A stretch of DNA of 28,931 nucleotides from a virus: the IMG/VR virus record IMGVR_UViG_3300009130_000103, positions 1 through 28,931 of that record, one strand, 5' to 3'. Position numbers and translations under genes: made by a program. The notes beneath the pieces are model-generated. The model worked only from the letters and a program-made list of their open reading frames with translations, was not told the DNA's origin and searched no databases. This document shows positions 1 to 19,300 of the stretch, in pieces. Every line of letters begins with the position of its first letter. The stretch's first letter is position 1.

Positions 1-242
1 GCTAAATCTAACGCATCAAACTTACCATACTTTATATAATCAAAAGTTTCTTTTGCAAAACCTGCTGCAAACGCAGATCCTGGTGGTAAATCTAATTCGT
101 GACCAACATATTCTGAAACTACACCAGCTCCAAAATGATAGTATTTATCTTTGCCTATAGGCTGTGCACTAGCACAACCCGCAATAACCGTTACAAATAG
201 GACACATAATATTCTAAAATTTACTTGCTTGATTAACTTCAT
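1..242 (-). CDS. YfiM/DUF2279-like lipoprotein, N-terminal part (3' end outside window)
   Basis: Only the first 80 codons are present. The start is ATG at 242-240, which overlaps the end of the preceding gene by 29 bases in another frame. The N-terminus (KQVNFRILCVLFVTVIAGCASA) is a lipoprotein signal with lipobox IAGC and lipidated Cys23. No acidic surface-export signal follows, so an inward-facing outer-membrane lipoprotein is likely. The mature part has KDKYYHFGAG (His36) and GFAKETFDY then KFDALDL, matching the D-K-x-x-H-F...KE..D...fD..D pattern I know from YfiM-like (DUF2279) putative lipoproteins. The role is not known. Together with the two membrane paralogues it could be the outer-membrane half of a spanin-like pair, which is speculation. 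It was found by hand translation of the overlap region. Confidence 0.72.
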   Translation of the reverse strand, partial: MKLIKQVNFRILCVLFVTVIAGCASAQPIGKDKYYHFGAGVVSEYVGHELDLPPGSAFAAGFAKETFDYIKYGKFDALDL

Positions 243-621
243 TTATCGCATTTTGTATTTCTTCTAAGTTTGTTGGCAGCTCCAAGTCTAAACCTGCTTT
301 CCAAACTGTTTCTTTTATACCATCTTTAAACAATATAATAGTAGGCGCCATACGTACCTTATATTTTTTCTTAGCTCCTGGTGCTTTAGCTATATCAACT
401 CTATAATAAGTTGCATCTTTTAATTGTTCCCATTCCGCAAAACAATTAGCTTCATTAAACTTAGCCCAAAATTCCACTACAACTGGCTTAGTATTATCAT
501 CGCCAAATGCTTGCTTCTCGTTTATTTTATTTTCAAACTCATTGTCGTCTAACCAGTATTTTTCTGGTACATCAACTTGAGCAAAAGATATAAATGGAAT
601 TAAAATTAAAAGGTATTTCAT
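214..621 (-). CDS. Secreted thioredoxin-fold protein lacking the CxxC site (135 aa)
   Basis: It has a signal peptide (MKYLLILIPFISFAQ, cleavage near A-Q) and then a thioredoxin-like domain: strand PVVVEFWA (residues 46-53), where the active site WCxxC should follow but reads KFNEANCF, so only one Cys (Cys60) remains; then YYRVDIAK and the typical cis-proline strand RMAPTIILFKDG (Pro93). The missing N-terminal Cys means it is unlikely to act as an ordinary disulfide oxidoreductase; binding, chaperone or monothiol roles are possible. Its location, if exported, is the periplasm. It is coupled to the 94-aa gene, and its 3' end overlaps the lipoprotein gene by 29 bases. The fold assignment is good; the function is not known. 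Confidence 0.8.
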   Translation of the reverse strand: MKYLLILIPFISFAQVDVPEKYWLDDNEFENKINEKQAFGDDNTKPVVVEFWAKFNEANCFAEWEQLKDATYYRVDIAKAPGAKKKYKVRMAPTIILFKDGIKETVWKAGLDLELPTNLEEIQNAINEVNQASKF

Positions 622-905
622 TATCTTCGTTGTTGTAGTTCGTATAATCTTTCGTCTATTTTATCTAACTGTTCTTTCATTGACTCTACGTCGTCTTGAG
701 TATCTAAAATTGTTTGTCGAATTAATTCGTCTTTTAAATCATACTCAACTCTATCGATAACGGGAGCAGGCAGTTCTTTAGCGAGCGCTATATCAGCTTG
801 TAGAGTAAACCACATTGTTGCAAGAGCAAAAACTCCCGCAGCGGCCATACCTATTGTTTTTAAGTCAATTGTTACTTTAGTTTCTTCTGATATTTGTTTT
901 GCCAT
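621..905 (-). CDS. Small single-pass membrane protein, paralogue B (94 aa)
   Basis: It starts MAKQISEETKVTIDLKT, then one membrane helix at about residues 18-35 (IGMAAAGVFALATMWFTL). The rest (about 51-94) is a highly charged coiled coil (DTQDDVESMKEQLDKIDERL) ending in QQRR. It is a tandem paralogue of the 104-aa protein upstream, shorter in the linker between helix and coil. Two such proteins side by side could form a hetero-oligomer, as with holin-antiholin or paired spanin components. The last base of its stop is shared with the start of the thioredoxin-like gene (TAATG). Confidence 0.78.
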   Translation of the reverse strand: MAKQISEETKVTIDLKTIGMAAAGVFALATMWFTLQADIALAKELPAPVIDRVEYDLKDELIRQTILDTQDDVESMKEQLDKIDERLYELQQRR

Positions 906-907
906 GA

Positions 908-1222
908 CTATTTTTTAGCGTTATCTATTTCTAACGCTTTAACAACATACTTTAGTTGTTCTACGTCATCTTGTAAATATTGTATTCTTAAATCTTGCTT
1001 TGCATCATCTGGTAATGCACCCATTTCTCCACGTGGCCATTTAATTCTAAACTCTTCATTAAGTGCAACAGCATCTTGCATTCTAATTACGTCTAATTGT
1101 AATTGTGATATTTCAGCTGTTAAAGTAAACCAAACACTAGCTATTGATACGATACCAACAACCGCTCCGATTACCGCTTTTATATCTAATGATACTTTTG
1201 ATTTTTCTGATATTTCTGTCAT
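908..1222 (-). CDS. Small single-pass membrane protein, paralogue A (104 aa)
   Basis: The N-terminus ISEKSKVSLDIK (residues 4-15) is followed by one membrane helix (about 16-34, AVIGAVVGIVSIASVWFTL) and a periplasmic or cytoplasmic tail with a predicted coiled coil (DLRIQYLQDDVEQLKYVVKAL, near 78-98). It is clearly related to the next gene: both share ISE..KV..D.K, the WFTL.A.I end of the helix and a QDDVE coiled-coil motif. Topology and size are those of holins or inner-membrane spanins, but no family could be recognised. Its start overlaps the preceding stop by one base and its stop lies 2 bases before the next gene, so the group is tightly coupled. Confidence 0.78.
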   Translation of the reverse strand: MTEISEKSKVSLDIKAVIGAVVGIVSIASVWFTLTAEISQLQLDVIRMQDAVALNEEFRIKWPRGEMGALPDDAKQDLRIQYLQDDVEQLKYVVKALEIDNAKK

Positions 1223-2430
1223 TATCTAAATGTAAAATTAACCCCGAAGTTTGAGTTAAATATTTTTGAGTCCCAAAATTTAGTATATTCACCTTCAACA
1301 AATATACCAATTGCTTTACTAACTTTCCAACCAAAAACTAAACCAGCTTGGTAGTCGTCCCATTGTTCACCTTCTAATAAATCATTATGTCCACCTTTGC
1401 CCCAGCTGTTTCTGTGAAGATAGCTAAAGTCTTCATTACCTCTCACATACTTGTGATAAGGTAGTATGTAATTTCCGTATGCATGTAGCCAGAAATTAGC
1501 TTTATAATGATAGAAGTCAAAACCGACGATAGGTGCAACTTCAGCAAAAGGCTCTAATTCAGCCCAAGCTTCTTCATTGAAACGATTCATCAATTCAAAA
1601 AATACATCATCTCTAAACTGTAGATCTGTATAAGCAACTATTTCACCACCAGCATCTACCCAATACCAATCACTAGTTTCAACACCATTTTCGTCAGTTG
1701 ATGTATAATATATATCATCATATCCGTATAAAAACCCTAATGAATACCATGGATTAGCTGGATATTCAAATGACTGACCTGTATTAGGATCTGTCCATGT
1801 TTCTATTTCATTTAACCATATTTCAATTGGGTTATATCCGTAAGGTTGTTGGTGAGTTCTATATATTGCACCAGCAGATATACTAAACTTCTTACCAATA
1901 GGTAACCTGGCTCTTATTTCACCAGATGTATATTCAAAACCTACATTACCTTGTTCTCTAGCTTCAAACTTACCAATATGATATTTACCTGTATGTCTTA
2001 CAAATAATCTTTTATTAGTAAATTCTTCACCATCTTTTCTTTCTTTTTCCCAATGTAATAGATATTCTAGCCCTTTTACAGCTGAAGTTGGTGCTGATAA
2101 AGCTATTTGTTTTTCAACTTTTTGATCACCTGTCCAGAAAGTTCCAGGCTTAGTTTCATAATCAAACCTAGCTAGTTTACGTATACCGAAGCCATATCTA
2201 TAATCATATGGGTGATAGACTGTCTCGTCTACAACTTCTGGTATTGCATATAAATCATCTGGGTTTGTTCTAACGAAGTACTCTTTGTTTTCCATTTTAG
2301 CATTACCTACATTACCGGCAGCATAAAATGTACCATATTTTAAGAAGTCATTATATACTTCTTTAAAAAAGCTTTGCCCTATAGAATTAAAGCTAACTAA
2401 TAAACATAGTATTGTTATTATTTTTTTCAT
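1222..2430 (-). CDS. Secreted beta-barrel-like probable outer-membrane protein (402 aa)
   Basis: This is the first gene of the left-end envelope cassette. It begins with a signal peptide (MKKIITILCLLVSFNSIGQ) whose cleavage near G-Q is typical of Bacteroidetes exported proteins. The mature part is rich in Tyr, Trp and Phe, with alternating aromatic strands (VGFEYTSGEIRARLPIGKKFSISAGAIYR; QAGLVFGWKVSKAIGIFVEGEY, read in parts) and ends in FGVNFTFR, resembling the closing strand of outer-membrane barrels, though the last residue is Arg rather than the usual Phe. Long acidic/aromatic loops (NEIETWTDPNTGQSFEYP; YYTSTDENGVETSDWYW) suggest surface exposure. Its stop overlaps the next start by one base (TAATG), so the cassette is translationally coupled. 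The function is unknown: receptor masking, uptake or envelope disruption are possible. A phage-encoded outer-membrane protein is unusual. Confidence 0.68.
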   Translation of the reverse strand: MKKIITILCLLVSFNSIGQSFFKEVYNDFLKYGTFYAAGNVGNAKMENKEYFVRTNPDDLYAIPEVVDETVYHPYDYRYGFGIRKLARFDYETKPGTFWTGDQKVEKQIALSAPTSAVKGLEYLLHWEKERKDGEEFTNKRLFVRHTGKYHIGKFEAREQGNVGFEYTSGEIRARLPIGKKFSISAGAIYRTHQQPYGYNPIEIWLNEIETWTDPNTGQSFEYPANPWYSLGFLYGYDDIYYTSTDENGVETSDWYWVDAGGEIVAYTDLQFRDDVFFELMNRFNEEAWAELEPFAEVAPIVGFDFYHYKANFWLHAYGNYILPYHKYVRGNEDFSYLHRNSWGKGGHNDLLEGEQWDDYQAGLVFGWKVSKAIGIFVEGEYTKFWDSKIFNSNFGVNFTFR

Positions 2431-2478: not shown

Positions 2479-5400
2479 TTAGTTATCAAAAGCTGCAAAA
2501 GGATCTTTCTTTTTATTTTTTTCGTCTCTTTTCTTTTGTTTTTTATCTAAATCAATAAATATCTGCATAAGATCTTCTTCTTCGTTTTTAGCACCTACAT
2601 CCCAGGTTCTCCAACCTAATGCTAATGCTATTCTTTGCCAAGCTCTATTTCTACTATCAGTAGCTTCAACTATACCATCAAGTTCACTAACAACTCTGTC
2701 TAATGGCAAGTTAAGGAAAGCAGAAGCTAAATTACCTATTATTTCATAAGAAGGTGCTAGATTTATTCTACCATCAGCTGTTATTTCAAATCCTCTTTCT
2801 TCTAATAAATCTCTATTAAATTTTCTAGTTTGTATTGCACTGTAAACTTTTCTTGCTTTTGATCCAATAGGTGGTGAAATGTTTAGTAACTCTATTAATG
2901 TATAAGTATGATCTGCTCTAAATCCTTTAGCATCTTGTTTCTGATACTGCATTATAGCATTTTTTATAGTTGACACAACAGCACCTTTTAAACCAGATCC
3001 TCTAAGCAACGTATCTATCATGTTATTTATCTGTCTAGCTTTTTTAGCATTTTCACTTTCTATTTGTTTCATTAAATCATCTTTTTCATCACCTTCGAAA
3101 CCTGGTAACAAACCAAACATAGCGTTTTGTAAAAATGTAAATATAAAGTTTTGTATAGCTCCATAGTAAACTATTTTACTAACATTTGTAAAATCACTTT
3201 GAAGTTGTGTCATACCTTCATATTTTTGTCTTCTAATTAACATAGTACCAGCTTTGTTTTGTAACCTAACCATTTGTTGTGTTACGTTTTGAAAAGCTAA
3301 TACTAATCTACCTAATGGACTTGCTTGTTCTTGAGATATTAAAGCTGGATCACCAGACTGTTGTGTTTTTTCTGCTATTTCAGAAAAATCATCAAAAGCT
3401 TTTTGTTTAGCTTCAGCATCTGTTAAACCTTGTTTCTTATATGTATTAAACCTGTTTCTATAAAATGGAGCACCACCTGCAGCGATAGCAAAGTTATCCA
3501 TTAATTGTGTAGGTGTAAAACCTATTTGTAATAAATATGATATAGCTGAGTTAAATCTATTTTTTGAGTTTTTTGCAGCGTTAGCTATTTCTTGCCATTG
3601 TAAATCTGTTTGTAAACCTCTTCTTCTTTGTTTAAGTTTAGGAGAGTTCCATATCATAGCAAAGTCTTGCCAAAACTGAGGTTGATTACCATAAGCTATA
3701 GCAGCTTTTAAAGGGTTGTTATCAGACCAGTTAACAAAATTTATAAATGATATACCCTGTAGTAAAGCTGATCTTCTGTTAAAGAACATTATTGTACCAA
3801 CAGAGTTATTAACCCAGTTAAGCCAAGCGTTTGTTGTTGCGTTAGCACCGCTAGGTCTATTAGTACCATTTTCCATTCTCCATAAAGCATCTTTTAGCGC
3901 ATCAACATATGTTGAACCATATATAGCTTCAAGCTTATTAAACACGTCTGGTGTAAATGTTGCTTCTATAACTTTTAACCAGTCTTCTAAAAATCTTTTT
4001 CTACCAACTTTTCTTGTTAAGTTATCTAGATCAGCAAGAACACTATTCATTTCCCAACCATCTTTTGGTGCAGGATATACACCATCTTTACCACTACCTA
4101 TGTTTTGTATTGCATCAGCATATTGTTTTAATCTAGGATCTGAATTTATTTCTTTTAATATACTATTTAAATCTCTTTTAGATATACCAGGTATATTTTG
4201 ACCTTGTTTATTATATATATAAACTCTTATACCTTGGTCGTAAGTAAAATTACCGTTCTGCATTAATTTAGTTAGCTTATCACTTTCAGCTTTGTAGTTT
4301 TTATTTAATTTTTTAAAATCACTTATTATAGAAGTTTTAGCTATATTAATAGCATCAACAGCTTTCATATAAGGTTTAAATAAATTATTTTGTAACCAAG
4401 CTAAATCTTTACTACCTTGTTCACCTTTACCAGCCATGTAATATAACAAGCCTTCAAAATCTTGTGCTGTAGAAGGTAGTATATAAAACTTAGACTGTTT
4501 ACCTTTTCTTTGTGCAACAACTCTCGAGAATCTAGCATCTTTTGAAACACCACTTTGATGTGCTATTATTTCGTTTATTTTATCTTCGTAGTTAATAGAC
4601 TCACTAAACGCTAGTTCAACCCTACCTTTTACATCAACATCTTTTAATGCGTCTTTTACTGCTTTTATATTTTTGATAGCATCGTCAGCAAAATAAAAAT
4701 CATTATAACCTTCACCAACTTTATTAATTATCCAGTCAGCTTTTGCTTGTGGTCTACCATCTTCTAAACCAGTTATATTTTCTATAGGTATGTTTAAGCC
4801 AATACCTTTTAAAAACGCGTGTATAGCATACGCAGCTTCTTGTGGTCTTGCTGTTAAAACAAATATATCACCACTACCAAACTTACCTTGACGTTTTAAT
4901 GCTAAATCAGCTAATGGACCTTTTTTACCATCGATAACTTTATTAAATTCACTAAAATCAAACTTAGCTCCTGCAGCTTCTAGATCAGCAGATTCTAAAG
5001 CAAACTCAGTAGCATTTATTCTTCTCTTGCTGCCATCAGGCATTGTAACACCTACCTTGCTGTTAGATTTTGCTAGTGTATCATCAAAATCAAAAACACT
5101 TATACCTTTTCTTTTACCAGATAAACTATTAGCCATTTCTAAAGTATTTCTAGCGTTTTTAGTTTTCTTTTGCTCTACCTTTAATTTTATATCGTCTTCT
5201 CTTTGTTTTATTAAAGTTTCTGCTGGTTTCATGTCAAATGTAAATACTTGACTTGGGTTAGGATATAATCTAATTCTTAAATCTTTATTAGGGTTATTTT
5301 TGCCAAATACATCTACAAAATCTAATTGAGATCTGTTACCTATCCATTGATCATGATATTCTAGTATACCATCTATAGCTTCATCTAAAGCTTCACCTTT

Positions 5401-8400
5401 AAGGTTTTTATATTTTAATTCAACTATATCAACCATTGTTGATGAGTTATCTGCTAGATGTTCGCCTTTCATTTTACCTAAAGGACCATCTGTTATTGTT
5501 ATATATTTCAAACCTGTTAAAGCTCTAAAACCTTCAGCGGCATTAGTCTGTAGCTGTAACATGTTTATCATTGAAACATCTGATATACCACTTTTTAAAA
5601 GCTTTTTAATCAAATATTTAAATAATATTTTATTTTGCGCATTAGCTTCTTTTATCTCTGTTTGAAGTTTTTCATCAAGCAGTTGTTCTATTTTTTCACT
5701 AGCTGTTGTATCGCTTTGTAATATTTTATCAATCCTAAAAAATAAACTACCAGCTATTTTTATATTCATAGGTCTGACTTTACTAATGTCAAAACCTTCA
5801 GGAAATTGAGCTTTAGTATTATTTAGTTTAGATTTTATATCTTGTAATCTTTGGTAAAAATCACCTGTAACACCATCCTGGTAAACAGTAAGACCTTTAC
5901 CTTCTTTCATTTTTCCTAACTCTTCAAGAGTTACATTTAGATCTTCAGCAACTGTTTGTTTTAATGATAATGTAGCTTCTTTATCTTGTTTCGTTTTAGC
6001 GGGGTCTAACACTCTGTTTATAAAACCTAATGCATCAAAGCCTATAACCTCTAAAATTTCAGCACCAAACTCATTTGCTAATATTTCCATGTCATCAGCA
6101 AATACTTTTCTAAGATCATAATCTGATTTGCTAGTTAATGCATTTTTGACTTGATCTTTAACTTCTTGTGGTATTGCTGGATTTTTTTGTATTGCTTGCA
6201 AGAACTTATAAACTTTTTGATCTTGTATTAAACCACTTTCATATATGTCTTGTACTATTTTAGCCATTTCAGGCGTAAATTCTTTATTGTATTTTTCGTT
6301 TAGAACACCTTTGCTATCAAAAACAGAATCATAATCACCTTTCATTACTATTTTAGCTAGCTTAGTAAGCTTTTGTAATCCACCAGCTTCACTAACACTA
6401 AACGCTAATTCAGGATCTCTTTTTATATTTTCAGCTAATTTACCAGTTACACCATCATACATAGCTTGCATGCTGTCAGAATTTTCCATAGCTGTAAACG
6501 TAGCATCAAGTATTAGTTCATTCGCTAAAGCATCTTTTAATGCTTTATGCGTTGTTTCTCTACCATCGTATTCTACTACACCTGTTAAATTACCATCTTT
6601 GTCAACATATCCTTGCTTGTCACCTCTACCTCTTATTTTTAAACCATCTACAAAAGCTTTTTCAACAAAATCAATAAACTCTGCTTTTTCATCAGGTTTC
6701 ATCTTGCTCATGTCTTTTGGTTTGTATATTTTATTACCAGCTTTTTCATCACTAACAAACTGCCCTTGATCACTTTGTTGATTTGCTTTTGATACATCAA
6801 CATTCATAGTACCAATAACTTCACTTAAAAATGGAAAACTTGATCTATGTTTTACAGCAATAAGGTTTATTAAACTTTGTAATGTTTCTTCGTTTCTTAT
6901 AAAATCTTTAAATTTCTTTGATTTTTGAGCACCTATAATATTAGTTATATCAGCTCTTAAGTTTTTAGCAGCATAATCCTGTATTATAGTTCTGGCTCTT
7001 CTAGGGTTTAAATCTAGTAGTTCTTTTACTGTTTTACCTTTAAATTTACCTTTAGTATCTTTTAAATTTAAAAACATTTCAGTATTAACCTTTAATGTTT
7101 TGTCGTATAGTTGACCACCAAATTCTATGTTTAAAAGTTTTCTAAACTCATTAAAGTCTTGTGTAGTTTTATTTATATCTAAACTACTATCAGTTGTGCT
7201 TATTTCAAAAGGTTGACCTGATGATTTTATTTCATCTATAGAATCTACAAACCTACCATATGTTGGTGATTTTTTTACAAAATCTAATATTCTTAAATCT
7301 ACTTGGCCTTGTCCTTGAATAGATGATTGAATCCATTGGTTTATATTAGTACCAACATTAGGGTTCCATCTTGATATTATTTCTGCTAAACCTCTTGACC
7401 TAGATTTTTCACCTAATACAAATTCAGACGTTAAGTTATCTATTTCATAATCATCTGTATTTACAGACATCGTTTGCTTAAACTTCTTTCTAATAAAGTT
7501 TTCCCAATAAAGACCTATCATTTCACCTACGTCTTTCTTTTCGTCTTTACTTAGTTTGTTCCAGTCAACAGCATTTATAATATCTTCAGTTTGTTCAAAT
7601 AAAGTTTTGTCATCAGTCATTGAATCTGCTTTCTCATCTATAGATAAGCCATCATCAACAGGTGTGTTTTTATATTTATCAAATACTTCTTCTATTCTTT
7701 TCTTATCTAGATCAGTTTTCTTTAACGTACCGTTATCTAGCTTTTGTCCTAGTGTTATTAAAAAATCTATAACATCATTAGGTTTAGACATAGTATCTCT
7801 ATCAATACCAGTAAAACCACTAATCCACCTACCAAAAGCACCCATAAATTGTTTATCTTGTGGTCTTGATAAATCCATTTGACTAGCTCTTTCAATAAAA
7901 CCAGCAATTATTTCAGCAGGTATAAAACCTTTTTCACCGACTTGTACTCTTTGTGAAAGATCAAAACCAAACATATCATTATAAACTCTTGGTTGGTTTT
8001 TAAGTAAATATTCAACTATATCATTAGCTATAGCAGCTTCTACAGCAGCTTTCTTAGCTTTACCCTCTTTGGTTCTACCATCACCAAATAATTTTAATAC
8101 TTTATCCCAGAGTATCAAGTGACTAGTTTCGTGTGTTTTAGTTTGAGTTCTACTATTTTTTATTTCGTTTTCTTCTATAGTAGCAAACCTATATTCACCA
8201 TTTACTCTAGCAGCTATACCATTTCTAGTTCCTTTTTTTGCATTTTTTATAGATTCCCAGTATTTTCTTTCACTTTTACTTAAGTTTTCTTTAGCTAATT
8301 CTTCATTAGCTCTATTAACAGCATCAGCTTCAGTTGGAAATATATCCGATGTGTAGTTTAACGACATTTCTTTATCCGTTAATATTTTATTTATAGCTGC

Positions 8401-10938
8401 CTTGTTTGCTGCAACTTGTTCTGTGTTGTATATTAACTCAGCTTCTTTGTTTATAGCAGATTCATTAGTGTTTTTACCTTCACTTTCAAGGTTTTTTCTA
8501 GCTTGTTTTAATATTCTATCATGTCTATCAGGATCAACACCTTTTAGTAAAGTAAATCTATTACCATATTTATCAGGGCTTTTAAACTCATCTAATATAC
8601 CTTCTAGTCTTTTATATTTTAAAGACAAAGCATTTATCATTGTCTCTTTTTTCTTTTCACTTATATCTGTTCTAGCTTGTATAGCCAAAGCTTCAGCTCT
8701 AAGATCATATTGAGCGCCAACAATAGACTTGAAATCTTCATAAACATTGTAACCCATTTTAGCACTCCATGTTTCATTAAAACCATCTATTTGTTTTACT
8801 GTATCATCTTGTAGCTCTTTTAATTCTTTTCTTATTTCTACAGCTCTTTTTGTTCTACCTAACTTATTATCTTTTAACTGCTGATATTCTTGTTTTAGCT
8901 CACGCATTGTTTGAGCATTATTTAATATACCTTCAACAACCTCTTTATTAGCCATAGATCTAGCTGCAGCACCTGTAACAACACCACCAGCACCCATAAC
9001 ACCACCAAAAAATCCACCAGCAAAAGCAGCGTGATCTACATTTTCCAATATAGGTCTACCAGTAAAAATATTCTGAAAAATACTAGTTAAACCCTCTGTT
9101 GTTGATTCAAGTCCAGCACCAATGGCAAACTCTTTAAAAGCGTTCTTCTTAAAATATTGTTTACCACTTAACATGGTTAAATCATCACTTTGATTTTTTA
9201 ATAAAGTTTTAAAACCACCACTCAAAGCTGTTTTACCTATAATAAACGTAGGTGCAACACCTAAAGCACCTTCAGCTAAACCAAAACCAGTTCCAACAAG
9301 CATTTTATGTAAATCCGATGTGTTTTTATCGTTGTAATCAAGATCATCTAATCTAGTTAAATATTCTTGATATGTCATATCACCTATTTGTTGACCAGCT
9401 GATTGAACACCTATAACACTACCAGCAGCCGCTGCTGATAAATATGTTCCAGCACCAAGAACACTAGCCGCACCACCAGTTGCTATCATACCAGCAAATA
9501 TAGGTAACTGCCTACCACTTTCTTCAAATAAAAATCTTCCAAAGTTATTCAAACTATCAAAAGCATCATCAAAATCTACATCTTTTCTAAATTTTTTTCT
9601 TTCAGCATCCATACGTTTTCTTCTTTCTTGACCATAGTCTTCGAAAAAAGTAAATTCATTTCCTTCTTTTGGATTATAAACAAGAGTAGATCCTCCACCC
9701 GGTAATGAAACACCTTCAAGATCTCTAAGTATATTCACACCAGCTTCTAAATATTCCATACCACCTGTTAATAAACCACCACCTACGTCTAGTATTTGAA
9801 AACCTAACTTATCTGCCATGCTAAAGTTTAATTTACTTATAGCTAGCTCTTCTTGTGCGTCTCTACCTATTTCAGATCTTTTTAATAATTCTTCGTATTG
9901 GTTTAATAAATCATCTTTAAGTACATTATAATTATGTATTGATGATTGCAGGTCATCATATTGTTCTTTTGATATAAATCTACCATCTAATAATTGTAAT
10001 TTTTCTGATCCTTCAGGTATATTAAATTTATAATCTGGGTTTTTAATATTTTCTTCAAACTCTGCAATTTTAACCGCATCTTCTCCGTTAGATATACCAG
10101 TAGCTTTTATTTGTAACTTGTCATACTCTGTTTTTATAGTTTTTGCGTCGTTACTTTTTAATCTAACATCTTCATTATATATATTTATAGCTTTTCTTTC
10201 ACCATCAGAAAAACCAGCCCAAGCACGATCAATTTCGCTGTCTATAGCTTTTTGTCTATCTAAAATGTTTTTTTGGAATTTAAAATAGTCTTGGACAAGA
10301 TCTATTGGGGGAACTTCGCCTTCCCATGTTCGGAATTGTTCAGGTAGTGTTGATAAATTTGTTTTACCGTTTTCTTCTTCAGAGTTCTTTTTTCTTTCTG
10401 TAAATTCTGCTGTTATAGCATCTAACTCTTCTTTGTATGGATATACTGTGTTTTTTTCCCTAGTACCAAAATAATCATAAGAACCATAATTAGAGCCTGT
10501 TTTTGGCGATGATGATATTTCATAAGGTTCAAAACTTAAATTTTCGTTAGCAATTTTAGCTTCTTCTATTTTTCTTTTTAACTGAGGATTTATATCTGGG
10601 TTATTTATTTCACCATAAGATAAGTAACCAATTACACCATCATCATACTCAACTGGCACGTTTCTTATATCATAAGTATCTTCGTACTGCTCTTCTTCTG
10701 TATACCCAATTGTTACCTGAGTACCACCTTTTGTTATTCTTGTTTTTGGTTTACTAGGTTTTGTATATACTGTTCTTTTTCTATCAGGATTTATATTTCT
10801 ACCCGGCTCTAGGTCTCTTTCTATCTCTCCAGTTTCAAACGCAGAAAATGGATCATCATTTACAATTTCTGTATTTACTGTAAAAGCTGCAAAAGGATCA
10901 TTAGTCTCGCTGCCATCAAGCGTACTATTGTTCATCAT
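2479..10938 (-). CDS. Giant polyvalent internal virion protein with metalloprotease-like, sigma-like and HAD hydrolase segments (2819 aa)
   Basis: Likely carried in the capsid and delivered with DNA, as for large multi-domain virion proteins of podoviruses. Visible parts: DPFAAF and DPFSAF motifs near residues 14-34; a charged helical region to about 450; Gly/Ala-rich hydrophobic stretches at about 475-665 that could insert in membrane; HETSH (936-940), a zincin HExxH, with a candidate third ligand Glu1009 in PAEIIAGF; a stretch at about 1125-1225 resembling sigma region 2 (RWNPNVGTNINQWIQ); and a HAD hydrolase at about 1943-2105 with all motifs: D1950/D1952 in FDFDDT, T2029 in VLTARP, K2066, D2085/D2086 in YFADD. 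The C-terminal 500 residues hold FFNRRSALLQG and a final DPFAAF at 2812-2817. The start ATG (10938) is one base after the previous stop. The substrates of the protease and phosphatase are unknown; the sigma resemblance is weak. Confidence 0.78.
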   Translation of the reverse strand: MMNNSTLDGSETNDPFAAFTVNTEIVNDDPFSAFETGEIERDLEPGRNINPDRKRTVYTKPSKPKTRITKGGTQVTIGYTEEEQYEDTYDIRNVPVEYDDGVIGYLSYGEINNPDINPQLKRKIEEAKIANENLSFEPYEISSSPKTGSNYGSYDYFGTREKNTVYPYKEELDAITAEFTERKKNSEEENGKTNLSTLPEQFRTWEGEVPPIDLVQDYFKFQKNILDRQKAIDSEIDRAWAGFSDGERKAINIYNEDVRLKSNDAKTIKTEYDKLQIKATGISNGEDAVKIAEFEENIKNPDYKFNIPEGSEKLQLLDGRFISKEQYDDLQSSIHNYNVLKDDLLNQYEELLKRSEIGRDAQEELAISKLNFSMADKLGFQILDVGGGLLTGGMEYLEAGVNILRDLEGVSLPGGGSTLVYNPKEGNEFTFFEDYGQERRKRMDAERKKFRKDVDFDDAFDSLNNFGRFLFEESGRQLPIFAGMIATGGAASVLGAGTYLSAAAAGSVIGVQSAGQQIGDMTYQEYLTRLDDLDYNDKNTSDLHKMLVGTGFGLAEGALGVAPTFIIGKTALSGGFKTLLKNQSDDLTMLSGKQYFKKNAFKEFAIGAGLESTTEGLTSIFQNIFTGRPILENVDHAAFAGGFFGGVMGAGGVVTGAAARSMANKEVVEGILNNAQTMRELKQEYQQLKDNKLGRTKRAVEIRKELKELQDDTVKQIDGFNETWSAKMGYNVYEDFKSIVGAQYDLRAEALAIQARTDISEKKKETMINALSLKYKRLEGILDEFKSPDKYGNRFTLLKGVDPDRHDRILKQARKNLESEGKNTNESAINKEAELIYNTEQVAANKAAINKILTDKEMSLNYTSDIFPTEADAVNRANEELAKENLSKSERKYWESIKNAKKGTRNGIAARVNGEYRFATIEENEIKNSRTQTKTHETSHLILWDKVLKLFGDGRTKEGKAKKAAVEAAIANDIVEYLLKNQPRVYNDMFGFDLSQRVQVGEKGFIPAEIIAGFIERASQMDLSRPQDKQFMGAFGRWISGFTGIDRDTMSKPNDVIDFLITLGQKLDNGTLKKTDLDKKRIEEVFDKYKNTPVDDGLSIDEKADSMTDDKTLFEQTEDIINAVDWNKLSKDEKKDVGEMIGLYWENFIRKKFKQTMSVNTDDYEIDNLTSEFVLGEKSRSRGLAEIISRWNPNVGTNINQWIQSSIQGQGQVDLRILDFVKKSPTYGRFVDSIDEIKSSGQPFEISTTDSSLDINKTTQDFNEFRKLLNIEFGGQLYDKTLKVNTEMFLNLKDTKGKFKGKTVKELLDLNPRRARTIIQDYAAKNLRADITNIIGAQKSKKFKDFIRNEETLQSLINLIAVKHRSSFPFLSEVIGTMNVDVSKANQQSDQGQFVSDEKAGNKIYKPKDMSKMKPDEKAEFIDFVEKAFVDGLKIRGRGDKQGYVDKDGNLTGVVEYDGRETTHKALKDALANELILDATFTAMENSDSMQAMYDGVTGKLAENIKRDPELAFSVSEAGGLQKLTKLAKIVMKGDYDSVFDSKGVLNEKYNKEFTPEMAKIVQDIYESGLIQDQKVYKFLQAIQKNPAIPQEVKDQVKNALTSKSDYDLRKVFADDMEILANEFGAEILEVIGFDALGFINRVLDPAKTKQDKEATLSLKQTVAEDLNVTLEELGKMKEGKGLTVYQDGVTGDFYQRLQDIKSKLNNTKAQFPEGFDISKVRPMNIKIAGSLFFRIDKILQSDTTASEKIEQLLDEKLQTEIKEANAQNKILFKYLIKKLLKSGISDVSMINMLQLQTNAAEGFRALTGLKYITITDGPLGKMKGEHLADNSSTMVDIVELKYKNLKGEALDEAIDGILEYHDQWIGNRSQLDFVDVFGKNNPNKDLRIRLYPNPSQVFTFDMKPAETLIKQREDDIKLKVEQKKTKNARNTLEMANSLSGKRKGISVFDFDDTLAKSNSKVGVTMPDGSKRRINATEFALESADLEAAGAKFDFSEFNKVIDGKKGPLADLALKRQGKFGSGDIFVLTARPQEAAYAIHAFLKGIGLNIPIENITGLEDGRPQAKADWIINKVGEGYNDFYFADDAIKNIKAVKDALKDVDVKGRVELAFSESINYEDKINEIIAHQSGVSKDARFSRVVAQRKGKQSKFYILPSTAQDFEGLLYYMAGKGEQGSKDLAWLQNNLFKPYMKAVDAINIAKTSIISDFKKLNKNYKAESDKLTKLMQNGNFTYDQGIRVYIYNKQGQNIPGISKRDLNSILKEINSDPRLKQYADAIQNIGSGKDGVYPAPKDGWEMNSVLADLDNLTRKVGRKRFLEDWLKVIEATFTPDVFNKLEAIYGSTYVDALKDALWRMENGTNRPSGANATTNAWLNWVNNSVGTIMFFNRRSALLQGISFINFVNWSDNNPLKAAIAYGNQPQFWQDFAMIWNSPKLKQRRRGLQTDLQWQEIANAAKNSKNRFNSAISYLLQIGFTPTQLMDNFAIAAGGAPFYRNRFNTYKKQGLTDAEAKQKAFDDFSEIAEKTQQSGDPALISQEQASPLGRLVLAFQNVTQQMVRLQNKAGTMLIRRQKYEGMTQLQSDFTNVSKIVYYGAIQNFIFTFLQNAMFGLLPGFEGDEKDDLMKQIESENAKKARQINNMIDTLLRGSGLKGAVVSTIKNAIMQYQKQDAKGFRADHTYTLIELLNISPPIGSKARKVYSAIQTRKFNRDLLEERGFEITADGRINLAPSYEIIGNLASAFLNLPLDRVVSELDGIVEATDSRNRAWQRIALALGWRTWDVGAKNEEEDLMQIFIDLDKKQKKRDEKNKKKDPFAAFDN
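2488..2505 (-). repeat. 18-base direct repeat, copy at the 3' end of the giant gene
   Basis: This is the partner of 10882-10899, in the same orientation and reading frame. It lies in the last codons of the 2819-aa protein, so the protein begins and ends with the same short motif. Homologous recombination between the copies would remove nearly the whole gene. Confidence 0.85.
10882..10899 (-). repeat. 18-base direct repeat, copy at the 5' end of the giant gene
   Basis: AAAAGCTGCAAAAGGATC (plus strand) is identical at 10882-10899 and 2488-2505, near the two ends of the same 8.46-kb gene. Both copies encode DPFAAF with the same six codons. A third related motif (DPFSAF) close to the 5' copy uses different bases, so identical codons are not forced by protein constraint alone. 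Confidence 0.85.
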
Positions 10939-10939
10939 A

Positions 10940-12391
10940 TTATCTTAATTTACTTATTATTCTAATTATTTCGTCTTTATTTAAGCTAGGATCTATTTTA
11001 TGACCTGCATCTATTTTATTTCTTTCACTTGTTTTACTCATGCTTACTGGCACTAAATAAGTACCACCGCCACTTCCACCAGTTACCTTAGTTGTAACTC
11101 CTGCGGCAGTAAGTAAAGGTGTTTGTTCTTCTTGTGATAATTTTTCAAAATCCTCTATATTCATACCAAACAAAGTTTTATATGTTTTATCTGTGTAAAA
11201 AGTTTCATAATCATAAGGATATTGTTTACCGTTTCTAGTAATTGTAAATGACCTTGTGCCGCCCGTACCCTCTCTATTTATTATTTCAAAACCTTCTTCC
11301 CAGATACTATCTTTTTTACCTGGTAAATTACTTAAATATAATCTCCAGTCTGATTGTGTAGGCGGTGTTTCAAAACCACCAAACCAAGTATTAACGTCTT
11401 TTTCAGTATCAGCGGGTGTTGTTTCAGTTATTTTAGGTAAAGAAGCTGTATAACCTGCATCAGCCTGCTCATTTAATTTAATCATATGAGCTTCAATCAT
11501 TTTTTCTTTTAAAAGTTTTTCTGCATTTGCTTTTGCAACAGGATCATCACCTTGCATAGCTTGTATTTCGTTTTGATATATATTTGGATCTAACAACGTA
11601 CCACCCATATCCATTACGTCTTCAAAAGCAGCAGATAATATACCTCCAGTACTTTCTTTATTTAAAAGTTGTCTATAGTCATTTCTTTTTAAAGCAGCTT
11701 CATTTTCTGTTAATTTTTTCTTACCATCATAAGCATTAACATATGTTTCCATCATTACTCCACCTAGCGCGTAGTTTTTGTTAAAATGTTCAGGTAAGTC
11801 TTTTACACGCACTCCTAAAAAGCTCATATTACCATTAGCGTCTATTTCTGGTTTTATTTTATTACTTTTTATATCTGATATAAAAACCTTGTCTTCGTCA
11901 GATACAAAATCAGATATTAAAGAACTATCAGCATCCTCGTTAAACCCAGAAAACTTTTGATCTAATAATCTTAATTCATTAGGTATTTTATTTAGTATTA
12001 AATCTTCACTGGTATTAATAAGGTTAGACATGTGAGATTTACCCGCAAAATCAGTAGCACCCATGTTTTTACTTAAATGTGTGTAATAACCTCTTTGAGC
12101 ACCTGTTTCAACAACAAGTGGCATTATTATAGATTTATATTCAGAAGGTAAATTTGTAAACTGAGAAAAATCAATTTGAGGTGAATTTTCTAAATTATGC
12201 TGTACTATTGCATCAGCTTGTCTTCTTTTTAATTCTTGTTCACTAACTTTAGGCCCTAAATTTATACCAGTACCTTTAGCGCCTTGATTAACAGCTGAAA
12301 ACACATTTATATTAGCATTAGAAACACCTTTTAAATTACCAAAGTAATTAGGTGTTCTAGGAGTTGTTGTAGTTTGTTTTGTTGTTGCCAT
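10940..12391 (-). CDS. Putative internal virion protein (483 aa)
   Basis: No fold is recognised. The N-terminal 50 residues are polar and probably disordered (TTKQTTTTPRTPNYFGNLKG). The middle (residues 60-330) is mostly helical, with YKSIIMPLVVETGAQRGYY and a charged, Asp/Ser-rich segment (NEDADSSLISDFVSDEDKVF). The last third has EKDVNTWFGGF, a Gly-rich bridge (VTGGSGGGTYLVPV) and a basic helical end (DEIIRIISKLR). There is no signal peptide or membrane span. It is packed between the Ala/Gln-rich protein and the giant virion protein, with only one base before the latter, so the three are probably co-translated as a set of internal or ejected proteins. That role is inferred only from context. 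Confidence 0.55.
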   Translation of the reverse strand: MATTKQTTTTPRTPNYFGNLKGVSNANINVFSAVNQGAKGTGINLGPKVSEQELKRRQADAIVQHNLENSPQIDFSQFTNLPSEYKSIIMPLVVETGAQRGYYTHLSKNMGATDFAGKSHMSNLINTSEDLILNKIPNELRLLDQKFSGFNEDADSSLISDFVSDEDKVFISDIKSNKIKPEIDANGNMSFLGVRVKDLPEHFNKNYALGGVMMETYVNAYDGKKKLTENEAALKRNDYRQLLNKESTGGILSAAFEDVMDMGGTLLDPNIYQNEIQAMQGDDPVAKANAEKLLKEKMIEAHMIKLNEQADAGYTASLPKITETTPADTEKDVNTWFGGFETPPTQSDWRLYLSNLPGKKDSIWEEGFEIINREGTGGTRSFTITRNGKQYPYDYETFYTDKTYKTLFGMNIEDFEKLSQEEQTPLLTAAGVTTKVTGGSGGGTYLVPVSMSKTSERNKIDAGHKIDPSLNKDEIIRIISKLR

Positions 12392-13372: not shown

Positions 13373-16300
13373 TTAAGGGACGTAATCTAAATCTACATCT
13401 ATTGTAAATGATACATCTGATGTTGATGATATTACTTCGTCTGTTTTTGCTGTCCAAGTATAGTGTAAATCTTGTGATGGGGCTACGCCAACTAAACTTG
13501 TTTTTGTAATTGTTAATTCTTGTGTTTGATGTATTGCTGAGCTAGATGCTGATGATATACTTAAAGTTATTTGCTGTAATGAGTTGCCATGGAAGTTACC
13601 ATACATAACACCAGTACCACTTGTTAAACTAGTAAGTGATAAAGTACCAACATCTATAGCTTTTACATTTGTACCACTATTTCCATTACCATCATTGTAA
13701 CTAAACCTGTGATCACCTACTATTATACCACTTGCATCACCTGTTACTGTAACTGATAGTAATCTTGAACCACCACCAGATCCACCAGAAACACTAAGAA
13801 AATCGTTTAAAGGTAATGTACTAGTTAAATCGCCATCACCATACTTATTGATAAACATATCACCAGTTATTGTAACCGTTTTTGGTGACGCTGAGTTATT
13901 TATAGTAACAACAGGTAAGCCAAAATCTAATTCAAAATTGTTTGTAAATATAGAGTGATCTTCATCTGTTGGTGTTGATACAAAACCTGTAAAATCATCA
14001 ATTTCAGGATCTCTAGTTTTACTTATATTGTTAGTAGCTGTAGCAGTTAAACTTAAAGCTATTTTTGAAAAGTCAGATCCTTCAACAGGATATGCACTTG
14101 CTGTGTATGTTTTAGTTGCTGCGCTCGATGTTATTGTAAAATCAGCTGTTTGAGAAGCATTTAAGCTTACAGTAACGTCAGCAAATTGATTTATATAAAA
14201 TGGGTTTTGTACTACATTAGAAGAGTTGTATACATTTCCTTGTAAAACAGGATCTCCAGCACTTGAAGGAGTTATAGGTAATAAAGTAGTTTCGCCTATT
14301 GCTTCTATTTGTATGTAATATCTTCTAGTCACAGTAGTTTCTAAAAACGGTATTGTAACAGAGTAAACACCAGTTGATGGTATTTCTAAATTTGTTTCAG
14401 ATCCAACAAACGTTGTACCGTTCCACCACTCTGTAAATGTTATTGTTGTGCTACTTATAGTCTGTGCACTTGAGAGCGTAACCGATGTACCATTAACACT
14501 AACAACAGTAACAGTACCACTTATACCAGTACCTGTAACTAACATACCGTTGTGTATGTCATTGTTTGCGGCTGTAAGCGTTAAAGTTGTACTTGAACCT
14601 GAAGTGCTAGCTGTTGAAGTTGTAGAGTTTTTAAATCTAAAATCTGCACCAACCGCACCAAAAACTTTTACTTCTTTATCTGTTGCAAATCTAGGAACAA
14701 CATTACCATTAACAACTCTATATCCTGTAATTTTATTAGTATCTGCAGCATTTTCTAAAACAGAACTAGCGTTAAATATAATTTCATCATCATTAGTATT
14801 AGATGCAGGATATTTATAACTTATGCTATACACACGTACGTGTACGTCTTCTAAAGTTTTACTATCTGATCCAATAGTTATGTTAGTATTAGTTGTATCT
14901 TTATCTTGAAAAGTAATTATATATTCACTTTCTGGATCTTCATCTTGTCTTGTTATTTTAAAGTCTGGTTGTTCAGTAAAATTGTAACCAAGATCTAATG
15001 TTAATGTAACTGTAGCTGCTAAAGTTGTAGATGTATAATTACTAGGTAAACCTGTAGCTGAGTTAGTTGGTTGAGCTGTAGCGTTACCAGAACCAGCATA
15101 ACTAATTACAGCAGTTACATTTGAATCTGTTTGTTCTTTTATATTAAGATCGTTTAATAAATATTGTTTTAAAACACCATCACCTGTAACAGCTAAACTT
15201 ATAGTTAAATCACTACTAGGCATGTTAACACCATCTGTAAAGTTTATTGTTGCTATTACATTATCACCACTTTGAGCGAAAGCAACACTATCTACATAAG
15301 TTCCAGTAGTACCTACGCTAAGATCACCAGCTGTCAACGTGCTACCTGTATTTGGTGTTATTAATATAGTTATACTAGAATTTGTACTGTGTATTTCTGT
15401 ACCTATTGTAACGTCAAATGTAGCGCCTGGGTTTGTTGTATTAGCAATACCAGTTAAAGCTACATTAACGGTTCTATCAGCTAAAGAAGTATCACCAGAT
15501 ATATTAGTTAGCTGACCAACACCTTGAACATTAAATTCAGTAGAATCTAAGTTAGCTAAAGTTGTTGCATCACCTTTTATATTATTATAATATCTACCTT
15601 CTTTTTTCTTAAACTCTTTTACAAAACCTTGTTGTAAGTCAGTTTGTATATATTCAGTATACCAACCTTTGGTATTTGTAGATGTAGCATTACCATAATC
15701 ATTTGTATATACTCTAGAGGCAGAACCTCCATAGTTTAATGTTTTAAAGCCTTTAATTGTTTCAGGCATTTCGTTTATTAAAAACGTTACAGATGAATCA
15801 TATTGTACACCATAAAAATTATTTCTAGTATCATTAGTGTGAACGTGTAATTCACCATTTTTTATAGAATAATACTTATTATTTAAAGACAAAGCAGCTT
15901 CAGGTATAAATGATTTAAAACTAGGAAAACCTCTAACTTTTTCATCAAAAGAAACTGTTTGATCACTTAATGTTAAATTATATAAACCTTTTGAACCATC
16001 ATAACTACCTAATATTAATGTTGAATTAGGTAATGTGTCTTTAAAAAAGTCTCTCATGCCATGCTCTGATATTGCTGATAAACCATCTCTTGATAATCTT
16101 AATACAGCACCTCTTGATTTATCTACAAAATAACATCTATAAGCATACGATGAAAATGACTCAGGGTTTTGTGATATACCATATTCACCTATAAAAGGTA
16201 TTGTTTGGCCTAAAACTCTATTTGTTGCTGTTAATTGTGGATTACCACTAGCTTCAAACAAAGCGTCTTTATTAGCTAATACTTTTAAAACTTTATCTTC

Positions 16301-19300
16301 ACAAAATACTATTAGATCTGTATTTCTAGCGTGTAACTTTTGTATACTACCGTAATGAGGATTAAGATCTTTTGTTATAGCTTCACCTTGTATAAATTGA
16401 TTTAATCTATTTACACCTGATGTTGAATTAAATATACCAGAGTATATTAAACCATTTTTTCTTCTTTCTTTTTTATATGGTTCATCTAAAACAGCAGAAG
16501 CTTTAACACCTTTATCTATTCTAGGCGCGTTATAATCATCATTTATTCTATCAGACTCAACACCGTTACCAAAAGAGTAACAGTTTTTAAAATCTAAAGC
16601 GTGTGTAGATCCGTGTTGTGCTATTGGTCTTGAAACACCTGTTTCAAAATATATATCTAAATCTACAGATTCTTTTGGCTCTGTTTCCCACACAGCCGGG
16701 TTATCAGATGTTAATACTTCTACATCTGTTGTTATAACGTTTTGTAAAATTTGTATTTCATCTGCAAAATTAGAAGCACTACCTGATGAAGGATATGTAA
16801 ACGAGTCTTCATATGGTGTGCCATTTTTATAATGCTCAAAAGTTATATTATATTGTCTTCTTTTACTTGAAGCTAATCTTCTTCTGTTTCTTCTATATTT
16901 ATATTCTATTTCACAAGCTGTAACTTTATATATTTCGCCTAAAGCATCAGTACTACTACCTTTAAATCTAAACAAAGTACCTGATGTACTTATTGATTTT
17001 AAAAAATTATTTATAGTATTTGCTTTGTCAAAATCTTTACTACCAGACTTAGGCGATGCGGTATATAATATACGCATTGTATGAGATCCTAATTTAGGAT
17101 GCCCATTGTTAGCTTGTGTTATTTTTCTTCTTTTTGCCTCTGTATCAAACCAAGATGCTTCTTGTGTACCATCACCAGGTCCTGTGTTTTGTGCATTACC
17201 AAATATAGTTCTAGCATCCGATATACCATACTCTTCATCTTCATCTGGAAAAGACGCTATAATGTTTGTATCAAAATTACTATCTCTATTTATTTTTACA
17301 AAAAACCTACCGTAAAACTCTGCTTTTCTTTCAAATTTTTCTTCAAAAAGTATTACGTCAAATTGAGTTCCAGAGCTTATAGTTGATACTACCGTGTCAC
17401 CAGTTTTTATAGGTTCAGCTAAAGTTATTTTATATATGTGTTTAAAACCTGTGCTACCAGTGCTATCTTCTTCACCTGTAGGACCACCACTTACAACTTT
17501 ATACTTGTCTGTTACAACACCACCTACAGATATTTGAATAACAGCATCAGAAGAAAAACCTTCACCAAAACTAGGATTTACCTGTGGATCTGGTCCTCTA
17601 AATTCAAAAGATATACTACCTACTTGAGGTATGTTAGATGATCTAGCTTTTACAGATCCATTACCTACAGCTCTTTGTTTTAATTTTAAAAAGTCAGGCG
17701 CATCATTAGATATATCTAATATTTTATATCTTGATTTAGTAGCTACAAACTCGTCAGAATCATGTTTCTTTTTTAATATCAAATAAGTTTCTTCATCAAC
17801 TTTGTTTCTTTCAGATGATGGAAAACTTAACCAAACATTACCATCTTCAGCTAGATAATATCTATCCATAGCTAAATTGTAATATTCGTTTGATGTTTCT
17901 TTTATGTAGTATTTAAAATGCGTAGCCCAGTCTGGTGGCTGATTATTTAAAGTAACATTTATTGTATTTACTGTTTTTGCGTAATCTTTACTGGTTTGTT
18001 TTGAAGCACTAGCACTAGTAAATACAGGTGATTGTCTATTGTATTTATCTATATATACAACACCCGCTTGATATGTTCTTAATGATTTTAATGATAACTC
18101 AGGTTCCTTTACTGTTGTTATACCAGACTGTGATATAGACATGCTAATATCAGGTAAGTTAAAATCAGGTATATCATAATTTTGTAAATAGTTACCATAA
18201 ATAAGTCTGTTAGCTGTAACCTCTTGTGATAAAGCTTGTCTTGGTACGTTATCCCATGGCCTTAATATTTGATTAGGTTCTACAACTTTTGTAATTATTT
18301 CTGACTCTAACTTATACTCTGTTGGAAAAGTGCCATCAGAGGCATATTTAAGCGTGTCTACGACGTATATATTGTTGTTGTTTGACTCTTTATATAATAT
18401 ATCAACTTTTTCTACATCAACAGGTCTTGATTCAGTTATATTTATTGTCAACTGTCTAAGGTTATTGATCATACCATCATTATAACCATCTGTAGATAAA
18501 TATTCAAATGTGTCAGGTAAAAAAGCTAATTCACTAAAAGGAGAGAAAGTAGAATATTGTCCGTTATAATATTTCCATCTATAACCAAATCTTACAAACT
18601 TCTTTTCAAATAAAACACCTTCTTCACTCAATATAGCTTCCCATTGTAAAGGAACATAAGGTATTTCTACAGGAATACTTTGTATTGTACATGTAAATAC
18701 ATTACTAGCGCTTATAGCGTTTATTAATAATTTTATTTCGTAAGTTTCTTGTTGACCAAGTTCTTCGTATACAGTTGTACAAGTTATTATATCACCTACT
18801 AACCAATTAGGTAAAGGTGAAAATGTTAAAGATAAAGAAGTTCCAGCAGCTTTAGCAACACCTTCTGTATCTGTAAACGTTGTGTTAACAGCATTACTTA
18901 TACTAACACTGTTAGTACCAGTACCGTTACCACCTCTTGTAGAGCTACTCATTGTTAAAGTTGGAGCACTCATCGGCGCTAATTTAGCAACAGTTATATG
19001 TTCTTCTAAAAAAGCAGAAGCTGCAGATAATTCTGAGCTAGGTATTTTTTTACCTGTGTATTTTGTATGTGTTGTAAAATTATCAGCACAACCAGATTTA
19101 AATACGTCTATTTCTATTTGTTTAGGTTCTTTTTCATTATCAGTCCACATTAATATATTTTCTAAAACATTTATACCAGTTATATATGTATTTGTTTTAA
19201 AATTTAATATATTGTTAGTATCAACTAATACAGGTGATATTATACCTTTTAAATCATCGTACTCAGCTATACAATCAGCTTCATCTGCTTTTATAAACCA

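Follow-up and report, generated by a model that had tools for sequence, protein, structure and literature searches.

Five coupled genes at the end of a marine phage fragment

Which step of infection is served by five tightly coupled genes whose products, according to an earlier note on this DNA, are all destined for the cell envelope? The stretch analyzed here (the window), a lone fragment of 28,931 bases, makes up an entire virus record, and the five minus-strand open reading frames at its left end were borne out as described: neighboring frames share one base at 1222 and at 621, two bases (906-907) separate the second frame from the third, and the last pair overlaps by 29 bases (214-242). 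They encode an outer-membrane beta-barrel protein of 402 amino acids with a Sec-type signal peptide (the barrel; 1222..2430, minus strand; MKKIITILCLLVSFNSIGQ); TMCC1 (104 amino acids; 908..1222, minus strand), with one N-terminal transmembrane segment followed by a charged C-terminal region that is probably helical; TMCC2 (94 amino acids; 621..905, minus strand), likewise with a single N-terminal transmembrane segment and with a C-terminal region predicted, as probable, to be helical; TRX, an exported thioredoxin-fold protein (135 amino acids; 214..621, minus strand); and a small exported or membrane protein (the fifth gene; 3..242, minus strand) that is open at the window edge, with 80 of its 101 amino acids inside the window. 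Three of these products make up what we call the triad: first the barrel, then TMCC2 and then TRX.

To the right of the five genes, all on the same strand, lay genes for a 2,819-amino-acid protein, structural proteins, capsid, portal and terminase. The closest portals were those of Flavobacterium, Cellulophaga, Maribacter and Tenacibaculum phages, and a crAss muzzle C-terminal domain (crAss_MUZ_C, PF25729; E = 1.1e-9) was found in a 2,071-amino-acid structural protein (13373-19588, minus strand). Because of these two features the host is probably a marine Bacteroidota bacterium, and because of the muzzle domain this podovirus group has tail parts in common with Crassvirales. The giant 2,819-amino-acid protein (2479-10938, minus strand), located between the triad and the structural genes, had no Pfam match, and its sole similarity, a weak one, was to polynucleotide kinase at residues 1940-2104 (phrog_415; E = 3.6e-4).

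An endolysin gene beyond the window edge

The earlier note had recognized no endolysin and had suggested looking for one to the left. In a near-identical 67.5-kb contig (L002), whose barrel was 100% identical to that of the window over 402 residues, the triad, the fifth gene, an M15 endolysin and a lipoprotein were located in a row on one strand. The fifth gene, there at its full length of 101 amino acids, occupied 10201-10506, and the M15 gene (155 amino acids; 10651-11118; PF08291, E = 4.8e-15; phrog_894 endolysin, E = 1.4e-27) started 144 bases past its end. The M15 peptidase had no transmembrane segment and no signal, i.e., it was of the cytoplasmic type. The missing endolysin was thus an edge effect, since the M15 gene sits just beyond the left end of the window, and its presence beside the row in L002 places the five genes in the lysis region. 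Neither a second M15 gene nor any member of the other three hydrolase families used was found in the whole 67.5 kb of L002. After the lipoprotein came three small basic proteins and then metabolic genes on the opposite strand. The three proteins (L002 11425-12419) were very basic; one had a DUF6321 domain and one was weakly similar to DUF5872.

The lipoprotein of L002 (124 amino acids) overlapped the M15 gene by one base, and a lipobox lipoprotein directly following M15 was a recurrent arrangement (within 5 bases in 12 of 13 cases). A crude scan, which missed known examples such as that of L012, found no lipoprotein-like gene within 4 kb of TRX in 57/82 loci. Replacement of the barrel by the lipoprotein, or the reverse, was considered and rejected, as the corresponding pattern was not seen and several loci carried both. 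For the fifth gene the label of lipoprotein given to it earlier is doubtful: a lipobox-like site was present in only 5/17 relatives, no conserved lipobox cysteine was found in the family, and the members from L012 and L076 lacked this cysteine. The gene matched weakly to phrog_29588, a family of unknown function, and was optional, being located near 14/82 TRX loci.

Predicted properties of the products

The AF2 model of the barrel had moderate confidence (mean pLDDT, 75; pTM, 0.63) and contained many long strands, consistent with a membrane barrel. In a fold search of PDB the best E-values (best E = 9.8e-7) belonged to outer-membrane barrels, among them autotransporter barrels, OmpG, NanC and porins, with low TM-scores. 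The signal segment, the modeled strands and these matches agree, at moderate model confidence, in pointing to an outer-membrane beta-barrel, as had been proposed from the letters alone. The barrel had no Pfam or PHROG family and no match among the 50,697 phage records of INPHARED, and at least 582 relatives were present in IMG/VR; in 84,980 genomes it was found on only 9 contigs from metagenome-assembled genomes (MAGs), all viral-looking. By these sequence comparisons, we take the barrel to be a phage family. Descent from a host porin was rejected, given that those 84,980 genomes held no cellular relative besides the viral-looking contigs, with kin of lower similarity still possible. These contigs (L207-L215) had been binned as Woesearchaeota, Maricaulis, Alphaproteobacteria and Bacteroidetes, probably through misbinning of viral contigs.

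TRX carried a signal peptide ending FA-Q, matched PF00085 (5.2e-7), was modeled by AF2 with a pLDDT of 86.7 and matched PDB thioredoxins down to E = 8e-8; from sequence and model, the predicted thioredoxin fold is beyond doubt. The description of TRX as a periplasmic thioredoxin-fold protein thus held for fold and export signal, but the CxxC active site is gone. TRX of the window has FNEANC at this position, and CxxC was found in 0/132 relatives, which have FNEAN, WNRGN and similar motifs instead. Activity as a disulfide oxidoreductase was therefore rejected, and because CxxC is replaced in all 132 members, binding is predicted to be a more likely role than redox chemistry. When TRX and the barrel were searched for in cultured phages, unrelated thioredoxins only, or nothing, were returned, and with a diverse TRX alignment as the collection query no conserved stretch was found.

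TMCC1 and TMCC2, regarded earlier as inner-membrane paralogues with coiled coils, were homologous over residues 3-40 (37% identity; E about 1e-6), with different C-terminal parts; hydropathy placed a single transmembrane segment at residues 16-34 of TMCC1 and 17-35 of TMCC2. The C-terminal flank of this segment was more acidic than the N-terminal flank in 25/32 TMCC2 members, a weak fit to an N-in/C-out orientation. By prediction, both proteins have the features of an i-spanin, namely, type II topology, an N-terminal transmembrane segment and a periplasmic helical domain. TMCC1 matched phrog_20984 (E = 1.4e-13), a family of unknown function, and the motif EFR(I/V)KWPRGEMG was present in 54/56 de-duplicated members, a conservation somewhat inflated because the seed search selected on neighboring peptides; the motif was recognizable also in pelagiphages found by full-length comparison. 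A tandem duplication of the TMCC2-TRX pair was observed in one contig (L051 6664-7999).

The barrel, TMCC2 and TRX form a fixed triad

Using the barrel, TMCC1, TMCC2 and TRX as four independent seeds, we gathered loci from IMG/VR, de-duplicated them into 161 groups without a shared 150-base word and scanned them with profiles; co-occurrence was counted for genes flanked by 4 kb or more on both sides. The arrangement recurred in more than 100 distinct loci, i.e., more than expected by chance. TMCC2 and TRX were located within 4 kb of the barrel gene in 74/74 cases, and the barrel was near TRX in 76/83. In 81 of 84 cases the gene right after TMCC2 was TRX, and in 81 of 83 the gene right before TRX was TMCC2; the median spacing was -1 base over 133 pairs. 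The barrel was mostly first in order and came after TRX in 18 cases. In the group to which the window belongs (15 cases), the TMCC1 gene separated the barrel gene from that of TMCC2; elsewhere it adjoined an M15 endolysin, including in loci that have no triad (L043-L058). From these counts the locus consists of a fixed triad of barrel, TMCC2 and TRX, an association of TMCC1 with endolysin, and optional extras. We rejected a single unit of five genes because loci differ in whether they carry TMCC1 and the fifth gene. The idea that the products work together thus stands for the triad, with its near-constant co-occurrence, and does not extend to all five genes; independent occurrence in relatives, or a standard lysis cassette elsewhere, would have spoken against joint action, and this outcome was reached in part for TMCC1 and the fifth gene and not for the triad.

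The triad crosses phage lineages. In 20 contigs tested, the barrel was present in 19 and the portal of the window's phage in 7, and contigs of 80 to 180 kb without a relative of this portal also carried the triad. By sequence, the triad was not found in any cultured flavobacterial phage of INPHARED.

The triad lies beside endolysins of several types

In 82 loci, the genes within 4 kb of TRX included M15 in 50, an amidase with a peptidoglycan-binding domain in 6, DUF5675 (to our knowledge a family of unknown function) in 5 and a phrog_33083-type endolysin-like gene in 3. One recognized peptidoglycan hydrolase family was thus near TRX in 64/82 loci, the lysis-cassette location looked for in a two-component spanin, and no locus had two families; no recognized peptidoglycan hydrolase was found within 4 kb in 18/82. 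This proximity (78%) is far above chance, because the 8.5 kb considered makes up 5 to 14% of a 60- to 180-kb genome (an estimate without simulation). Gene order varied around the triad. An amidase and a two-transmembrane-segment (two-TM) holin-like gene preceded barrel, TMCC2 and TRX in L073, an endolysin-like and a holin-like gene preceded them in L066, and the order in L234, L239 and L270 was holin-like gene, barrel, TMCC2, TRX and amidase; the contigs with these layouts were 93 to 181 kb long, had one barrel each and lacked a relative of the portal of the window's phage. Two small two-TM families, of 84 and 76 amino acids (L066 4942-5196 and L212 7798-8028), were located beside the barrel or TMCC1 and had no PHROG match; they are candidate marine-phage holins. 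The lipoprotein family was present in 15/82 and TMCC1 in 23/82 TRX loci. The enzyme changes and the lineage changes while the triad stays unchanged, which is the pattern expected of a lysis submodule. Of the three roles that the earlier note had offered, lysis is therefore the best, with the triad beside a single endolysin of varying type; superinfection blocking and envelope remodeling could still be among its functions.

Proposed function of the triad

We consider it probable that the locus belongs to the lysis module, of which the five genes would be the first part. Whether the triad itself carries out or controls the outer-membrane step of lysis is close to an even call, which we would place slightly on the doubtful side. 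As judged from signals and topology, the barrel would be exported and inserted into the outer membrane, TRX would be exported to the periplasm and serve there as a binding module without redox activity, and TMCC2 would have an inner-membrane anchor and a C-terminal region extending into the periplasm, so that the three, if they form a complex, could bridge the envelope. A holin, possibly TMCC1, TMCC2 or the product of the fifth gene, would release the endolysin; after the endolysin had cut the wall, the triad would act on the outer membrane or set the timing of the event. TMCC1, also in the inner membrane, would be linked to the endolysin as an i-spanin-like or holin-like partner. In its most specific form, which we put forward tentatively as one possibility, the triad would be a spanin based on an outer-membrane protein and used by several marine phage lineages, with the barrel in place of the o-spanin lipoprotein, inactive TRX as an adaptor and the inner-membrane protein as a stalk. 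The triad's outer-membrane member is a barrel, and a lipobox lipoprotein follows the endolysin in the closest relative (the family being present in 15/82 loci), so an ordinary pair of i-spanin and o-spanin, TMCC1 and this lipoprotein, may exist; given such a pair, the triad may do something else.

One such function would be the timing or inhibition of lysis, with TMCC2 (or TMCC1) as a bitopic holin, TRX as a periplasmic antiholin or sensor and the barrel sensing or conditioning the outer membrane. TMCC2 and TRX are the tightest pair of the locus (81/83), one bitopic and the other exported, and the closest long relative has neither of the two two-TM holin-like families, so that some protein of the cassette must serve as holin there. 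Nonetheless, a separate two-TM holin-like gene was present in 22/82 triad loci, and the barrel was always accompanied by the pair (74/74, in this one direction), although a holin and antiholin need no barrel; we therefore regard control of timing as unlikely.

Superinfection exclusion or receptor masking, in which the barrel would replace or block an outer-membrane receptor while held by TRX and TMCC2, seems rather improbable to us. Receptor blocking is a role that would readily suit an outer-membrane barrel specific to phages, and the genes adjoin virion genes in the late region. However, the triad was placed beside four endolysin types and holin-like genes, an exclusion barrel would not need fixed partners in the inner membrane and periplasm, and the barrel was fairly conserved (mean column identity, 60% over 28 aligned members), whereas blockers would usually be expected to track the receptor of each host. 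Should timing or exclusion be the true function, the triad would still define three as yet unnamed protein families that marine phages carry as constant partners.

Quite unlikely, too, in our estimation is an ordinary cassette in which TMCC1 and the lipoprotein after the endolysin form the spanin, the fifth gene or TMCC2 is the holin, and barrel and TRX serve nutrient uptake or envelope stability. The close placement of the lipobox lipoprotein behind M15 and the i-spanin-like topology of TMCC1 agree with such a cassette, but these two genes co-occur less often than barrel, TMCC2 and TRX do, and a porin for nutrient uptake would not be tied so strictly to TMCC2 and TRX. A part in the virion or in DNA ejection is disfavored by the Sec signal peptides.

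Comparison with known systems

Crassvirales and the cultured flavobacterial podoviruses (Cellulophaga, elemo and Panino phages) resemble the window's phage in portal, terminase, capsid neighbors and the crAss_MUZ_C domain, but differ from it in that barrel and thioredoxin-like protein were not found in them by tblastn. With the thioredoxin family (PF00085), TRX shares the fold and, by a simple pattern, a proline at the cis-Pro position in 110/132 members; it differs in being exported and in the absence of CxxC throughout. The TMCC1 relatives of pelagiphages (HTVC027P gp15, HTVC121P gp53 and HTVC010P gp40, some annotated as fibrinogen-like coiled coil protein) are similar to TMCC1 in their single N-terminal transmembrane segment, the motif EFRIK(W/Y)PRG and, in several genomes, a position in the lysis region: in cultured HTVC027P the relative lies one gene from an M15 endolysin, and those of HTVC010P and HTVC121P are near an endolysin. 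No barrel-like or thioredoxin-like partner was matched there, and a small exported-looking protein follows instead. TMCC1 was common to 44 pelagiphage records, with EFRIK(W/Y)PRG kept across hosts (e.g., L123 6980-7402 and L125 6998-7381).

In T4, holin T is bitopic with a periplasmic part, and antiholin RI is periplasmic and separately exported. TMCC2 and TRX likewise combine a bitopic inner-membrane protein with a separately exported partner; no sequence relation to T and RI was found, and the set here includes a thioredoxin-fold protein and a barrel. Reports on flavophage lysis genes have so far named enzymes, holins and a small number of unimolecular spanins (PMC8776804), and a search on barrel-containing lysis cassettes found no such paper in the literature collection covered.

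It is still an open problem how phages lacking a recognizable spanin breach the outer membrane. In a survey of spanins, none was found in 91/677 phages, including Bacteroides and Croceibacter phages, and an outer-membrane protein was named as a possible substitute for the o-spanin (Kongari et al. 2018, PMC6139136). With more than 500 relatives of the barrel in IMG/VR, the triad offers a concrete and widespread candidate. Cultured phage collections do not contain it, and its conservation across unrelated phages points to a possible new mode of outer-membrane disruption. It is similar to two-component spanins of the Rz/Rz1 type in its location beside the endolysin, its tight overlaps and its products for both membranes, one of them an inner-membrane protein with an N-terminal transmembrane segment and a predicted periplasmic helical region. 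It differs from them in that the outer-membrane member is a beta-barrel rather than a lipoprotein and in that a third, thioredoxin-fold protein is always present.
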